From positions 6,510,001 to 6,574,000 of the forward strand of contig NZ_CP090063.1 of assembly GCF_021391495.1 (NCBI RefSeq): a DNA stretch of 64,000 nucleotides, written 5' to 3'. This stretch comes from Amycolatopsis acidiphila (GTDB lineage: Bacteria > Actinomycetota > Actinomycetes > Mycobacteriales > Pseudonocardiaceae). The notes beneath the pieces are model-generated. The model did no database searches, had not been told where the DNA came from, and worked only from the letters and a program-made list of their open reading frames with translations. This document shows positions 5,184-55,309 of this stretch, in pieces (the stretch's first letter is position 1; every line of letters begins with the position of its first letter). Position numbers and translations under genes: made by a program.

Positions 5184-6557
5184 ATGGCTCTCACCCGACG
5201 GGATCTGCTGCGCACGGGCGCGCTGGGGATCGTGGTCGCCGGCAGTGTGGAGGCGATAGCCGCGCCTGTCGCTGCCGCCCAGACCCGGCGCCCGGCGGGC
5301 TACGGTGCCCTCGTGGACGACCCGGCAGGCCTGCTCGCGCTGCCGAAGGGGTTCTCCTACCGGGTGGTCGCGCAGGCGGGGGTCACGACGCTGGAAAGCG
5401 GTCAGCCGACGCCCAGCGACGCCGACGGGACGGCGTGCTTCCGTGACGGGCGCGGGTTCGTGCTGGTGAACAACCACGAGATCGGGGGCGGCGAGCCCTA
5501 TGGGGTGCCGGCACTGCCGGGGCTCAGCTACGACCCGGGCGCCGCGGGCGGGACCACGAACATCCTCGTCGACCACTCGGGCAAGCGGCTGCGCGAGTAC
5601 GTGAGCCTCGCCGGTACGCACAACAACTGCGCGGGCGGGCACACGCCGTGGAACACCTGGCTGACGTGTGAGGAGACCGAGCAGCGCGCGGGCGGGGTGT
5701 TCCAGCAGGACCACGGTTACGTGTTCGAGGTGGACCCGTTCGACCGGGCGGCGAACCGGAACCCGGTCGCGCTGAGGTTCCTGGGCCGCTACTCGCACGA
5801 GGCCGTCGCGGTGGACCCGGACGACTCGACGATCTACCTCACCGAGGACGCGAGCGGGCCCAACGGCCTGTACTTCCGCTGGACGCCGCCGCGCGGTTTC
5901 CGCGGGCGGAAGGGCGCGCTGCGGCACCTGCAGCTGACCGAGGGCGACAACGCCGGACGGTTGCAGGCGATGAGCTGTTTCAAGGGTGGCAGGCAGATCG
6001 CGGACCTGTCGGAGGCCACCCAGCCGGGCACGAGGTACCGGGTCAAGTGGGTCGACGTGCCCGACCGGCAGGCCGCGGAGGTCTCGGTGCGCAGCCAGTT
6101 CGCGCCGGGCGAGGTCACGCACAGCCGGAAGCTCGAAGGGGCGTACTGGGGTGACGGCGGGGCGTACTTCGTGGCCAGCTACGCCCGCGCGGACGACGGC
6201 AGTGTGCACGAGCACGACGGGCAGGTGTGGTTCTACGACCCGCGGTCGGAGACGGTGGAGCTGAAGACGATCTTCGGCGTGAACCCGGACCCCGACGCGG
6301 ACACCAACTACGACGGCCCGGACAACATCACGGTTTCCCCGTACGGCGGGCTGATCCTGGCCGAGGACGGGGAGGGCCTGTCACACCTGGTGGGCGTGAC
6401 CGATCGCGGCCAGGCGTACCCGATGGCGCGCAACGAGCTGAACAACAGCGAGTTCACGGGCCCGACGTTCAGCCACGACGGGCGTTTCCTGTTCGCGAAC
6501 ATCCAGACGCCGGGGTACGTCTTCGCGATCACCGGGCCGTGGGAGGAATGCCGGTAG
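5184..6557 (+). CDS. PhoX-like secreted phosphatase (DUF839), Tat-exported
   Basis: A protein of 457 residues starting at an ATG five bases after a strong AGGGAGGT. The N-terminus MALTRRDLLRTGALGIVVAG is a twin-arginine signal with a hydrophobic core and a likely cleavage near AAAQT. The mature part carries PhoX/DUF839 family motifs: VLVNNHEIGGGE, GTHNNCAGGHTPWNTWLTCE, YSHEAVAVDP, TEDASGPNGLYFRW and a late GRFLFANIQTPG. PhoX enzymes are calcium- and iron-dependent alkaline phosphatases that fold in the cytoplasm before Tat export, so this one probably releases phosphate from organic esters outside the cell. No Pho box was identified. Substrate is unknown and other DUF839 proteins have unassigned roles. 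Confidence 0.85.
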   Translation: MALTRRDLLRTGALGIVVAGSVEAIAAPVAAAQTRRPAGYGALVDDPAGLLALPKGFSYRVVAQAGVTTLESGQPTPSDADGTACFRDGRGFVLVNNHEIGGGEPYGVPALPGLSYDPGAAGGTTNILVDHSGKRLREYVSLAGTHNNCAGGHTPWNTWLTCEETEQRAGGVFQQDHGYVFEVDPFDRAANRNPVALRFLGRYSHEAVAVDPDDSTIYLTEDASGPNGLYFRWTPPRGFRGRKGALRHLQLTEGDNAGRLQAMSCFKGGRQIADLSEATQPGTRYRVKWVDVPDRQAAEVSVRSQFAPGEVTHSRKLEGAYWGDGGAYFVASYARADDGSVHEHDGQVWFYDPRSETVELKTIFGVNPDPDADTNYDGPDNITVSPYGGLILAEDGEGLSHLVGVTDRGQAYPMARNELNNSEFTGPTFSHDGRFLFANIQTPGYVFAITGPWEECR

Positions 6558-6568
6558 TCGGGGGGTCG

Positions 6569-6821
6569 GACTCGACCACCTGCATGAGGTGAGGCAGGGG
6601 CTTTTCCTGGCTCATCTTCGAGCCTGCCCGTCCGGCGAGGACTCTCTTGATCTTTTCCCCCTGCGCGCAGCGCGGGGGCGCGCTGCGCGGGGGGTCGCGG
6701 GTGGCTGGGAACGCCCGTCCCACCCCGATCGCGGAGTGTTCAGGACGCGGGGATCGGGGTTAGGGAGCGGGCTGGGCGCGGGCATTCTTGGCTGCCGTTG
6801 CCGGGTTCGCCTTCGCGGGGT
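6569..6821 (+). repeat. Dispersed structured repeat, copy A
   Basis: Fills most of the non-coding gap between the convergent phoX-like and cobIJ genes. It matches, in reverse orientation, the sequence at 53980-54209. The core at 6602-6661 differs from its partner at one of 60 positions. Directly after it is a hairpin at 6657-6678 (CCCCC, bulged T, GCGC, loop GCA, GCGC, GGGGG) that is kept in both copies. Further shared blocks include GACGCGGGGATCGGGGT and GGCTGCCGTTGCCGGG. A CCCCGATC/GATCGGGG pair flanks a 17-base stretch near 6724-6758. No conserved coding frame was found. Function unknown; a structured RNA, a terminator-like 3' element or a REP-like element are possible. Confidence 0.8.
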
Positions 6822-6841: not shown

Positions 6842-8332
6842 CTAATAGCTCCTTGGTGTCCACACCTGGCCATTGGTCACCCTGGTCCGCGACGAGCCTA
6901 CGATCAAAAGACACCGCATGTCCACAGTAGACACGTCCAGCTCGCCCAGGGTGGTCACCCGCACGGCCTCCTCCTCACCGCCGACGTCCCTTGCCACCAC
7001 CACGGGCGTCGCCGGCGCGCGGTGGCGTAGCAGTACCTCCCGTGCCTGCGCCAGCTGCGTCGTCCGAGTGCGCGAAGCCGGGTTGTAGATCGCGAGCACC
7101 AGGTCCGCCGCGCCGGCCGCGTCCAGCCGCTTTTCGATGATCTCCCAAGGCTTCAGGCGATCCGACAACGACAGGACGCAATAATCGTGCCCCAGTGGCG
7201 CGCCCACTCGCGACGCCGCGGCCTGCGCCGCCGTCACGCCGGGCAGCACGCGCACCGAGACCGCGTCCTCCTGCAGCGACGCCTGTTCCAGCACGGCCGA
7301 AGCCATCGCGAACACACCGGGATCACCGGACGAAACCACGGCCACCCGCGCCCCGCCCTGCGCCAGGGTAAGCGCTTCCCGGGCACGGTCGGCCTCCACG
7401 CGGTTGCCCGACGCGTGCCGCTGCTGCCCGGCGCGCTGCGGGACCTTCGCCAGGTACGGACCATAGCCCACCAGGTGATCCGCCGACTCCAACGCCTCCG
7501 CGGCCTCGGGCGTCAGCCACTGTGGACCGGCCGGACCAAGCCCGACGACCACGACTTCACCACCGACCGCGGGCGCCGACGCATCCACCGAGGCACCCGA
7601 CTTGCGCGAGGCGTAAGCAGGACTGGGCACGAGTGCGAGCGAGAAGTACGGCACCGACTCGGGATCGACCTCCGCGAACGGCTCTACCCGCTGAGTTTGC
7701 CACGTCGCGCGCTCCACGTAGTACGCGTCCTCGAGCTTCCCGGACTCAGCCAGCGCCTCGCGCACGGAACCGAAGGTACGCCCCAGCTTCAGCACCGCCG
7801 CGGCTTCGGTATCCGCCAACCGCCGCGCGAGCTCGGGTGCGGGCAGGGTGCCCGGCAACACCGTCAGCACCTCGTCCCGCTGCACCAACGGGCGCCCCAG
7901 CACCGCCGAAGCGGCGCTCACCGACGTCACGCCCGGCACGGCTTCCGCCTCGTACCGGTCGCACAGCCGTTCGTGCATGTACATGTACGAGCCGTAGAAG
8001 AACGGGTCGCCTTCGCACAGCAGCACGACATCGCGTCCCGCGTCGAGATGCTCGGCGAGGCGTTTGGCGCTCAGCTCGTAGAACTCGGCGATCGCGCCCT
8101 CGTACCCGCCCGGGTGATCCGTGGTCTCCGTGGTCACCGGATAGACCAGCCGCTCCTCCAGCTGCCCCTCCCGCAGGTACGGCTCGGCGACCGAACGCGC
8201 GATGCTCCGGCCGTGCCGCGCACTGTGGTACGCGATCACCTGTGCCTCGCCGATGAGCCGCGCGGCCTTGACCGTCAGCAGCTCGGGGTCGCCCGGACCG
8301 AGCCCCACACCCCACAGCTTCCCGGTGCTCAT
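6842..8332 (-). CDS. cobIJ: CobI-CobJ fusion: precorrin-2 C20- and precorrin-3B C17-methyltransferase
   Basis: A protein of 496 residues made of two tetrapyrrole methylase domains. The N-terminal half (about 1-245) begins [21 protein letters not shown] and carries [20 protein letters not shown], as in CobI (C-20 methylation of precorrin-2). The second half (about 257-496) restarts with [19 protein letters not shown] and has [20 protein letters not shown] and [15 protein letters not shown], as in CobJ (C-17 methylation and ring contraction). Fused CobIJ proteins are known in actinobacteria. It is the last gene of the leftward cobG-cobH-cobIJ operon; its ATG overlaps the cobH stop by four bases. 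Its 3' end faces the convergent phoX-like gene across repeat copy A. Confidence 0.95.
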
Positions 8333-52500: not shown

Positions 52501-53922
52501 ATGCGCGCAGGGGGACTGGCTGTCGCGATGGCCGGGGTGCTGGTACTCGGTCTCACGGCGTGCGGCGGTGGTGCAACGAACACCGCGGCCGCTTCGGTGG
52601 CAGGCCTGCCCGTCACCCACTTCCAGAGCGGCCTGCGCGCGAACGCTCCCACGCCCGACCTGCAGGTGGAGAACGCCGGCGACGACGAGGCCGACAAGCT
52701 CGCGACCGCCACGATCGCCGACGTCGAGGACTACTGGAGCAAGCAGCTGCCCGACGACTTCGGTGTCGCCTTCGAGCCGGTGAAGTCGCTGCTGTCCTAC
52801 GAGTCGAACGGCGCCAACCAGGAGAACGGCTGCGGCGACACGAAGCGGAACGTGAACGCGTTCTACTGCGGTCAGGACGACTCGGTCGCGTGGGACCGGG
52901 GTGTGCTGCTGCCCACGATGATCCAGCAGTTCGGGCCGTTGTCGGTGGTGACGGTGCTGTCGCACGAGTTCGGCCACGCCGTGCAGTACCGGCTGCAGGA
53001 CAAGGCCGGGATCACCCGCAGCACGCCGACGATCGTCAAGGAGCAGCAGGCGGACTGCTTCGCGGGCAGCTACTACCGGTGGGTCGCCGAGGGCAACAGC
53101 AAGTACTTCACGGTGTCCACCGCGGAGGGGCTGAACTCGGCCCTGTCCTCGCTGTTCCTGGTGCGCGACAGCGCGGGGACCTCGGCCGAGGACAGGCAGG
53201 CGCACGGCACGGCGTTCGACCGGATCTTCGCGTTCCAGCTCGGCTTCGAGAAGGGGCCGAAGGAGTGCGCGGGGATCAACATGGAAAACCTGCAGCCGCG
53301 GCTGACCGAGCGCCCGTTCGACCCGGACGACAACAACAAGGGCACGCTCGACATCGACGAGCAGACCGTCGGTTACCTGCAGGACAGCCTGAACGCCGCG
53401 TTCGCCGGGGCGAATGTGGCGGCGCCGAAGATCGTCGACGGGGGTGGCAGCTGCCAGGGTGGGCCTGCCACGCCGCCGGCGTCGTACTGCTCCTCCGACA
53501 ACACGGTGAACATCGACCTGGCGACCCTGGCGGAGCTCGGCAAGCCGGTGGACCAGGACGCGGAGTGGAACGGCCAGGACAACGGTGGTCGAGGTGACTT
53601 CGCGGCCCTGTCGGAGATCGCCTCGCGGTACGCGCTGGCGATCCAGAACGGCGTCGGCGCGTCACTGGACAACGCGAACGCCGGTCTGCGGACGGCATGC
53701 CTGGTAGGCGCCTGGGCCGCGGCGGCGAACAAGCTGGGGGACACGAAGCTGCGCCTTTCCGCGGGTGATCTCGACGAGGCGATCTCGGACCTCCTGCGCC
53801 CGGACAGCCTCGTCGCGGCGGACGTCAACGGCAAGCGGGTCGATGCGGGCTTCACCAGGGTCGAGGCCATGCGCACGGGATATCTGGAAGGTTCCTCGCC
53901 GTGCAGTAAGCAGTACGGCTGA
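52501..53922 (+). CDS. Lipoprotein neutral zinc metallopeptidase
   Basis: A 473-residue protein from the ATG at 52501. A lipoprotein signal ends VLVLGLTACGGG with lipid-bearing Cys21. The zinc-binding motif is VVTVLSHEFGHAVQYRL (His155, Glu156, His159), and KEQQADCFAGSYYRW supplies the third ligand region, as in the predicted neutral zinc peptidase family (YpfJ-like). Several paired cysteines (CGDTKRN, FYCGQDD, ECAGIN, SYCSSDN) suggest disulfides outside the cell. Substrate unknown. Repeat copy B begins 57 bases after its stop. Confidence 0.88.
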   Translation: MRAGGLAVAMAGVLVLGLTACGGGATNTAAASVAGLPVTHFQSGLRANAPTPDLQVENAGDDEADKLATATIADVEDYWSKQLPDDFGVAFEPVKSLLSYESNGANQENGCGDTKRNVNAFYCGQDDSVAWDRGVLLPTMIQQFGPLSVVTVLSHEFGHAVQYRLQDKAGITRSTPTIVKEQQADCFAGSYYRWVAEGNSKYFTVSTAEGLNSALSSLFLVRDSAGTSAEDRQAHGTAFDRIFAFQLGFEKGPKECAGINMENLQPRLTERPFDPDDNNKGTLDIDEQTVGYLQDSLNAAFAGANVAAPKIVDGGGSCQGGPATPPASYCSSDNTVNIDLATLAELGKPVDQDAEWNGQDNGGRGDFAALSEIASRYALAIQNGVGASLDNANAGLRTACLVGAWAAAANKLGDTKLRLSAGDLDEAISDLLRPDSLVAADVNGKRVDAGFTRVEAMRTGYLEGSSPCSKQYG

Positions 53923-53979: not shown

Positions 53980-54209
53980 GGCGACCCGGCAACGGCAGCC
54001 AGGAATGGCCGCGCCCGGCCGCCCCCTTACCCCGATCCCCGCGTCCTTCAGCGGTCGGGGTGGGGCGGCCCACCTCGCGCTCCGCGCGAGGTCCCCGAAA
54101 CCCCCGCGCCGCGCGCGGGGGAAAAGATCAAGAGAGTCCTCGCCGGACGGGCAGGCTCAAAGATGAGCCAGGAAAACCGCCTACGTCACCTTCTCGACGT
54201 GGTCGAGTC
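53980..54209 (-). repeat. Dispersed structured repeat, copy B
   Basis: Reverse-oriented partner of copy A at 6569-6821. The core is at 54117-54176, identical to copy A at 59 of 60 positions. Next to it are the kept hairpin at 54101-54121 (CCCCC GCGC, loop CGC, GCGC GGGGG) and a second perfect nine-base-pair hairpin at 54072-54092 (ACCTCGCGC, loop TCC). GACGCGGGGATCGGGGT and the terminal CCGTTGCCGGG block are also shared. It lies between the convergent metallopeptidase and thioredoxin genes, the same kind of site as copy A. Confidence 0.8.
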
Positions 54210-54324
54210 GTGTGGCCATCCCGTCGCCTGCGGTCTGTGCATATCACTTTGACCCAGACCCGCAAGCTTTGGTCTTTGAAGCTGCGGAATCGTCCCGTGT
54301 CAGGCGACGGGATGACCACCCAAC
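54207..54324. repeat. Long-armed inverted repeat beside repeat copy B
   Basis: Arms at 54207-54230 and 54301-54324 match at 21 of 24 positions (inner 18 at 17). They enclose 70 bases that can fold again (CCGCAAGCTT near 54261 with AAGCTGCGG). It fills the rest of the convergent gap before the thioredoxin gene. It could be a terminator-like RNA structure or the remains of a small inverted-repeat element. No open frame was recognised inside. Confidence 0.65.
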
Positions 54325-54349
54325 TCTGGGGGTTTACCTGAGCTACCGC

Positions 54350-55309
54350 TCAGAACAGGGCCGACGCCAGGTCGCGCCTCGCCTTGGCCACTCGCTCGTC
54401 CGCCGGGTCGAAGAGGTCGAACAGGCCCACCAGGTGCTCCCGCACTCGGTTGCGGTCGTCGCCGAAGGTGCGGCGGACCGTGCCGATCAGCCGCGCGAAC
54501 GCGTCCTCGACCTTGTTCTCCGCGACCTCGAAGTCCGCAGCCGCGAGCTGGGCCTCCAGGTCGTCCGGGTTGGCGTTCGCGCGGGCCACGGCCGACGGGT
54601 CGGCGGCCTCCGCACGGGCGGCGAAGCGCACCTGCGTCAACGCCGCCTTCGCGAGCTCGTTCGCCGGCTCCACGTCGAGGATGCGCTGGTACGCCGCCTC
54701 GGCAGCCGCGTAGTCGCCGCGCTCGAAGGCGTCCTCGGCCTCGGTGAAGCGCGGGTCCTCCGGCTCCTCGACCTCTTCGGGCCGGGCGTCCTGAACCCCC
54801 GGCAGCTTGTCCTTGAGCGCGTCGAGCAGGGCGCCCAGCCACTTCTTGATCTCGGGCTCCGGCAGCGCGCCCGCGAACGCGTCGACCGGCTGGCCGCCGG
54901 CGATCGCGACGACCGTCGGGATGGACTGCGCGCCGAACAGCTGCGCGATCCGCGGGTTCGCGTCCACGTCGACCTTCGCGAGCACCCACGCCCCGCCGGA
55001 CTGCGCCGCCAGGCGCTCCAGCACCGGGCTGAGCTGCTTGCACGGCCCGCACCAGTCGGCCCACAGATCGACGATCACCAGCTGCTGCAGGGACCGTTCG
55101 ACCACGTCCGCCTGGAACGAGGCCTCGGTGACCTCGAAGACGGCACCGCCGCCACCGGCAGGCGCCTGCGGCCCTGCCCCGGGCGGCGAGGCGGCCGGCT
55201 GCTGGCGCGCGGCGTCCGCGCGTGCCTTCAGCGCGGACAGATCGACCGCACCCGACAGCGCGGCCGACATGGCTGCTGAGTTCGCTGCTGATCCGCGTGG
55301 GTTCGTCAC
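54350..55309 (-). CDS. Thioredoxin-TPR protein (YbbN/CnoX-like)
   Basis: A 319-residue protein from a GTG at 55309. After an Ala/Pro-rich start, a thioredoxin domain (about 55-160) carries [20 protein letters not shown] with an intact WCGPC at residues 86-90. The C-terminal half has TPR-like helices ([40 protein letters not shown]). E. coli CnoX is a related chaperone-redox protein, but its motif lacks the full pair, whereas this one should be redox-active. Similar to mycobacterial Rv1324 by my recollection. Confidence 0.9.

Follow-up and report, generated by a model that had tools for sequence, protein, structure and literature searches.

The window analyzed here is a 64,000-nt stretch of the Amycolatopsis acidiphila chromosome (NZ_CP090063.1, positions 6,510,001 to 6,574,000). 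It holds two copies of a non-coding repeat, copy A and copy B, each in a gap between two genes that end facing each other (Table 1). The convergent neighbor of copy A presumably encodes a cobalamin-pathway methyltransferase. We take the gene ending towards copy B to encode a zinc metallopeptidase and its convergent neighbor a thioredoxin-like protein.

A preliminary description of the window, made from its sequence alone, reported that the stretch at 6569-6821 (+) recurs inverted at 53980-54209 (-), and alignment bears this out (80% identity over 258 aligned columns, E 5e-55). As described, the 60-base core differs between the copies at a single position, the C5-GCGC hairpin carries an extra T in copy A, and both copies occupy gaps of convergent genes. 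Two points required revision. The stretch given for copy B is real; its upstream end was placed too short, and the element reaches about 54327, including a reduced D1. The parts described as diverged GC-rich spacers are variable hairpin modules.

Table 1. Modules of the two repeat copies in the window and the genes that flank them
Feature	Positions	Strand	Basis
Copy A D2, short hairpin ACCACCTGCATGAGGTG; D1 absent (5'-truncated)	6569..6598	+	alignment, sequence
Copy A D3 core, GGCTC..GAGCC and GTCC-GGCGA-GGAC hairpins followed by TCTCTTGATCTTT	6599..6658	+	genome search, alignment
Copy A D4, variable GC-rich hairpins including C5-GCGC	6659..6715	+	alignment, sequence
Copy A D5 remnant, arms CCCCGATCGC...GGATCGGGG, inner TCAAGG/CCTTGA hairpin missing (limits approximate)	6716..6770	+	
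Copy A D6, tail GGCTGCCGTTGCCGGGTTCGCC (limits approximate)	6771..6821	+	
Copy B D1, outer arms, most of inner stem deleted; upstream of the end first described	54205..54327	-	
Copy B D2	54181..54204	-	
Copy B D3, conserved core	54121..54180	-	
Copy B D4, GC-rich hairpins	54064..54120	-	
Copy B D5 remnant and D6 tail	53980..54063	-	
Gene ending towards copy A (host context, not element)	5184..6557	+	codon-usage gene call
Convergent neighbor of copy A	6842..8332	-	codon-usage gene call
Gene ending towards copy B	52597..53922	+	codon-usage gene call
Convergent neighbor of copy B	54350..55270	-	codon-usage gene call

Modules, copy number and gene context

The element is a mosaic of modules D1 to D6, of which both window copies are truncated versions; fuller copies of several hundred nt lie elsewhere in the genome. 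D1 is a hairpin of ~145 nt at the 5' end whose outer arms are GAGTTGGGTGGTCATCCCGTCGCCTG and its complement, D2 is a short hairpin, D3 the core, D4 a set of variable GC-rich hairpins, D5 a hairpin around TCAAGG...CCTTGA and D6 the tail. The core nearly duplicates the left arm of D1 and could compete for the right arm; its positions 44-87 (query numbering) are the part matched most often in relatives. D1 has been lost between direct repeats of GGTCATCCCG in three loci (L091, L135, L169), and one more copy, at position 2,273,682 of the genome, has D4-D6 and no core. A coding repeat was rejected, in agreement with the preliminary description, which had found no conserved reading frame: across D1-D3, with the best frame of six taken, 4/14 A. 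acidiphila copies and 7/30 of all copies are open, and copy lengths fall into all three classes modulo 3. A known Rfam family was likewise rejected. The window has no Rfam match at gathering score, and a search of six loci at E <= 0.5 returned three tRNAs over threshold and two matches below it, all within the tRNA stretch of one locus (L047) and none over the element. Within the TTGATCTTT of the core (window 6647-6655), shared by the cores of this family generally, lies GATCTT. This hexamer agrees with GATC(A/T)T, the published consensus of Gbn, a nucleoid protein of Streptomyces (PMC9239103).

Throughout the A. acidiphila genome (8,183,622 bases), the core was found in 26 places at E <= 3.1e-7, the next match having E 0.013, which places the similarity far above chance, as had been supposed. 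Half of these cores (13/26) lie on the + strand of the chromosome, and a bias by chromosome strand was rejected. None occurs from 2.57 to 5.69 Mb, and the copies are spread over the remainder; a gap that large (3.1 Mb) arose in 0.015% of uniform simulations.

Gene context was assigned with a purpose-written codon-usage script trained on Amycolatopsis loci. Among 27 A. acidiphila loci (L001-L026 and L028; a degenerate locus, L027, and the overlapping L029-L030 were left out), 19 are convergent, seven co-directional and one divergent, against 25/249 convergent and 101/249 divergent for background gaps (>= 50) drawn from the same loci and 70/489 convergent for all adjacent pairs (Fisher p 1e-11 for 19/27 vs 25/249). 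Divergent gaps are avoided (3/105 loci in partly overlapping sets, p 2e-15). A second set, labeled 'named', comprises 81 cores, of which 20 have no called gene on one side and one was called inside a gene; 36 of the 60 classifiable loci are convergent. A set from relatives has 25 loci, seven of them with no called gene on one side and with L031 and L049-L052 left out, and overlaps the 'named' set in part. Orientation to co-directional neighbors is mixed, the with/against counts being 5/2 in A. acidiphila, 7/2 in relatives and 10/12 in the 'named' set, with loci partly shared. The preliminary view of a dispersed, non-coding, structured repeat holds, with stem covariation and, in this genome, a strong preference for convergent gaps: further copies exist, a single one of the 81 'named' cores falls within a gene and no frame is kept.

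Orthologous gaps differ in occupancy between species. The gene ending towards copy B has an ortholog in 19/19 genomes of the genus and keeps its convergent neighbor in 12, the other seven having a different neighbor or a contig end. Among the 12 syntenic gaps, the element is present in A. acidiphila, G006 and G016 and as an internally deleted version in G007; G009 has D5/D6-like sequence alone, inverted; six gaps (G018, G012, G001, G008, G003, G004) span 7-91 bp and contain a short palindrome or nothing; and that of G011 spans 233 bp with none of the modules recognized. The copy A gene has orthologs in 11/19 genomes with the neighbor kept in four; the gap is occupied in A. acidiphila and G007, measures 6 bp in G006 and holds a different repeat array in G004. 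Loci of the relatives G010, G005 and G006 are flanked by sequence 100% identical to that of loci in A. deserti, A. thermalba and Amycolatopsis sp. GM8, in line with Amycolatopsis as the genus they share with the window. Where A. acidiphila has a site in common with GM8 or A. thermalba, each species has its own version of the element. At one of the A. acidiphila sites (L017), the element is inverted in A. deserti and A. thermalba (L098, L145), which may reflect inversion or independent insertions. Retention at shared sites could mean a host function. We found neither a target duplication nor an exact insertion boundary, the occupied and empty orthologous gaps being too diverged for a boundary to be read.

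Other repeats and insertions were seen at these loci. In some Amycolatopsis, convergent gaps are occupied by arrays of a short repeat around GTGTTTGCC / GGCAAACAC (L269, the copy A gap of G004; L258, the copy B gap of G009; L041; L155), a second dispersed repeat. In A. thermalba the D5 hairpin is interrupted directly after GGCGGGAAAG in three copies (L099:7441, L132:594 and L134:2677, oriented locus coordinates), and the same first 14 bases as in this insertion occur at L162:7761. From its translated start, we take the insertion to be an IS3-family element; copies of the repeat act as insertion-sequence targets.

A related form in conjugative elements and its descent

AICEs are pSAM2-like conjugative elements of actinomycetes that replicate by the rolling-circle mechanism. 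A D1 model matches 122/297 genomes and 32/46 genera of the Pseudonocardiaceae, with few matches per genome in many genera (counts take in both strands and stop at 10 per genome); in a sample drawn from the class it matches 3/394 genomes, two of which are Pseudonocardiaceae. In the genera with few matches the element that was read is a low-copy, non-coding form of ~400 nt, here called P-type, which consists of D1, D3 and a conserved 3' tail. The tail CCTTGAACAAG...GAAACTCTGAACAC, as well as the reading CCTTGAACAAG...TGAACAC, is kept in 13/14 loci. The D1 hairpin and D3 core are common to the P-type and to the window family, here called A-type. GATCTT is absent from the equivalent place of the core in 13 aligned P-types. 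This homology formed no part of the preliminary description, and its detection needs other genomes.

One P-type adjoins genes for GntR, FtsK/SpoIIIE, DUF2637, RepSA (E 3e-152) and tyrosine integrase proteins by Pfam search, and the same kinds of protein lie alongside other P-types, as judged by eye. In 30 genomes, chosen from the 122 with a match and all low in matches, 28/56 low-copy sites have a pSAM2-type RepSA gene no more than 16 kb away on the same contig, against about 0.7 expected by a rough estimate; the count omits a few short RepSA fragments. Of these 28, 26 are on the strand of rep with rep downstream, one is on the opposite strand and one has its nearest RepSA fragment upstream. 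The usual position is 2-10 kb upstream of repSA. The other 28 sites have no RepSA within 16 kb, five of them being in genomes where RepSA had no match at all. Location in an AICE, with fixed orientation, holds for about half of the low-copy sites. Among 13 RepSA regions from five Amycolatopsis genomes, four (one each in G003, G017, G009 and G001) have D1, core and tail on the strand of rep. The four RepSA regions of A. acidiphila lack such an element, and 0/26 cores of this genome lie within 16 kb of them, so that placement upstream of repSA is seen at 26/56 low-copy sites and at none of these cores. For one A. acidiphila copy, on the opposite strand, the distance to a RepSA gene is 16.3 kb. 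The genome also has a degenerate P-type (L027, G000:C1:6926469), distant from all of its RepSA genes.

Plasmid and phage records were also searched. A 16.3-kb circular Streptosporangium plasmid contains a diverged D1 and core, and is the sole record in the plasmid collection that matches the A-type, over 36 bases of the core. Six Streptomyces plasmid records match the P-type at its tail end alone. The three that were read (L222:5520-6060, L223, L224) have a hairpin-rich non-coding stretch near a helix-turn-helix gene, ending in CCGCCTTGATCAAGTAAAGAAACTCTGAACA, nearly the P-type tail; this is possibly the Streptomyces counterpart of the P-type. Neither form has a match in 50,697 phage records (blastn, E <= 1e-3), and a phage origin was rejected.

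Five genomes of three further genera (g13, g53, g55) have 7-48 D1 matches each, both strands counted. The copies there consist of D1 and a core variant, without the P-type tail and without D5. Thirty of their loci (L299-L328, from G199, G154, G153, G093 and G030) were read as dispersed D1-core repeats, four of these genomes having 11-48 matches. Convergent gaps are less strongly preferred in these genera (8/20 classifiable loci, with four divergent).

The relationships were inferred with FastTree from 107 D1-D3 rows: 41 A-type, 35 low-copy, 30 from the high-copy genera and one outgroup. From 44 low-copy candidates, five without both arms were left out and four duplicate loci removed; the label 'P' in the tree denotes low copy, RepSA linkage not always being present. 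Copy B (L004) and two loci of relatives (L032, L039) were also left out. All 41 A-types group in a single clade (local support 0.90), whose sister is a Qaidamihabitans AICE copy that lies 8 kb upstream of RepSA (1.0). The g13 clade is placed beside a RepSA-linked copy of G116 (0.97) and that of g53 next to a congeneric copy (0.93), and g55 stands apart (1.0). A-type and P-type are thus homologous, and the dispersed copies form separate clades beside AICE or low-copy relatives. These separate clades imply dispersal at least four times, and a single dispersal limited to Amycolatopsis was rejected. Support at the deep nodes is low (0.15-0.82) and the rooting depends on a single diverged plasmid sequence, so that we infer the direction from AICE to repeat on the basis of the wide occurrence of the AICE forms.

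Selection on the fold

The D1 alignment comprises 47 of 85 distinct rows, copy B not being among them, and has two-sided changes at 22/40 pairs. Of the inner-stem cells, 97.8% are paired in A-types vs 89.0% after shuffling (43 rows), and 95.1% vs 92.1% in A. acidiphila copies (14 rows). Column divergence in A-type D1 is 0.008 in the outer stem, 0.095 in the inner stem and 0.28 at unpaired positions (43 rows). Counted as distinct pair positions on the + strand, G-U exceeds A-C by 16 to 4 in all rows (p 0.006), by 12 to 3 in A-types and by 10 to 3 in A. acidiphila copies. The direction of this bias holds with the predicted fold of the other strand (9 G-U vs 20 A-C from that strand). For the P-type the counts are 37 vs 12 with the + strand fold and 19 vs 26 when the other strand and its fold are used, and the consensus folds at -292 vs -270 kcal/mol (+ vs other strand). 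Across D1-D3 the bias is weak (29 vs 17, p 0.05), and D5 has none (8 G-U vs 11 A-C). Folding energy of D1 alone is equal between strands (-146.2 on + vs -146.7), + being lower in 21/47 single rows. In the core hairpin, a paired double deletion (GTCC/GGAC to GCC/GGC) occurs in L033, L053, L248 and L251. The maintained pairing of D1, together with its surplus of G-U over A-C, means that one strand is selected for its fold. In our reading this strand is selected as RNA or as single-stranded DNA, and the case is strongest for D1 and the P-type.

Origin of the repeat and alternative explanations

Our preferred explanation, to which we assign a probability of about 60%, is that the window repeats are a dispersed non-autonomous family related to, and most likely descended from, the P-type, an AICE cis-element and putative single-strand origin. 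In being non-coding, folded in a strand-specific way and placed on the rep strand of rolling-circle elements, the P-type resembles such an origin (sso). The P-type would serve as the AICE single-strand (minus) origin, its hairpins on the displaced strand starting second-strand synthesis. Pieces of it would have left the AICE, multiplied in chromosomes and survived mainly in the gaps of convergent genes, presumably because insertion there spares promoters and coding sequence. The mosaic copies of the window would result from subsequent module loss, in part between GGTCATCCCG direct repeats, and the palindromes may double as two-way transcription stops. A mobilizing enzyme for the repeat was not found.

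The P-type shares with the ssos of rolling-circle plasmids and ICEs its non-coding nature, several hairpins, a rolling-circle carrier and a fixed orientation. The likeness drawn here is one of features. TAGCG(A/T), the hexamer of Firmicute ssos, is absent from 13/13 full P-types on either strand. The window copies differ from an sso in being chromosomal and without a replicon, and from their AICE relatives in having no nearby RepSA and no P-type 3' part. For comparison, sso1 of ICEBs1 is reported as orientation-specific with three predicted stem-loops (PMC4595007), and sti/sso of pIJ101 as the single-strand origin of a rolling-circle plasmid (PMC4170104). MITEs too are short, non-coding and dispersed with inverted-repeat structure, but the present element has the D1 hairpin at its 5' end and the D6 tail at its 3' end in place of TIRs at both, and no related insertion sequence was seen. 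REP/BIME and other extragenic palindromes are likewise dispersed, intergenic, palindromic and mosaic, and REPs are said to be insertion-sequence targets (PMC1525189), a property shared by the present repeat. The preliminary description had proposed a REP/BIME-like site; mobilization of such a family by a RAYT (Y1) transposase is now very improbable and largely refuted. The element is far longer (several hundred nt, D1 alone being ~145) than the 20-50 nt given for most REPs (PMC12306157), is mosaic and is kin to a conjugative-element cis-site, and no Y1_Tnp (PF01797) match at E <= 1e-5, and hence no RAYT gene, was found in 6/6 genomes including A. acidiphila, while 5/14 control genomes match.

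Convergent gaps may serve the repeat as refuges; alternatively, its palindromes may have been recruited as two-way terminators. As the whole explanation, a domesticated two-way terminator or insulator, kept at gene ends because its palindromes stop transcripts from both convergent genes, seems unlikely to us. It would account for the convergent enrichment in Amycolatopsis, for the short palindrome that stands in for the element in the copy B gap of G001, G012 and G008, and for the long hairpins that D1 and D5 form on both strands. Two-way function alone, however, predicts no strand bias, and D1 shows one, so that such recruitment alone does not fit whether the bias is inherited or maintained. 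Some element gaps (L024 and L006 of A. acidiphila) also have a separate terminator-like hairpin, element-free orthologous gaps of 6-7 bp exist, and convergent preference is weaker in other genera. A role of the P-type in transfer, as a clt locus bound by FtsK-like Tra, or as a double-strand origin (dso), with the chromosomal copies as clt-like sites, is rather unlikely. AICEs require both a clt and a dso, and the conserved P-type tail would suit either; a large, folded, strand-specific structure is unexpected for double-strand binding repeats. Chromosomal clt-like sites have been reported for a Streptomyces TraB (PMC3218068).

Strand-specific tolerance of G-U, covariation, the paired double deletion in the core hairpin and the possible competition of the core for the right D1 arm would all suit a functional structured RNA from the + strand, either a trans-acting sRNA or a 3' element, with the AICE copies also acting as RNA. 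The preliminary description had suggested a functional RNA; we find it quite unlikely and not the simplest reading. Single-stranded DNA accounts for the same signal, location in AICEs on the rep strand points to replication, orientation to co-directional neighbors is mixed, modules are often lost and no Rfam family matches. An improbable but consequential extension of descent from AICEs is that these elements repeatedly seeded chromosomes with their own single-strand origin or transfer site. A rolling-circle Rep acting in trans on the hairpin, as in one-ended transposition, would multiply the copies, which would in turn serve the AICE as chromosomal initiation or docking sites.

The repeat belongs to a known kind, that of dispersed extragenic repeats; its link to a conjugative-element cis-site is unusual. 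A literature search, with limited reach into subscription papers, found no prior description of the A-type or P-type. The P-type is a candidate replication cis-element of Pseudonocardiaceae AICEs found by conservation alone, with D1 in 32 of the 46 genera sampled, and it has turned into a dispersed repeat in no fewer than four lineages. The candidate origin and the route of spread are testable, as is the preference for convergent gene ends. Should the seeding of chromosomes by AICEs prove true, AICE-derived chromosomal copies would help to move host DNA between cells.
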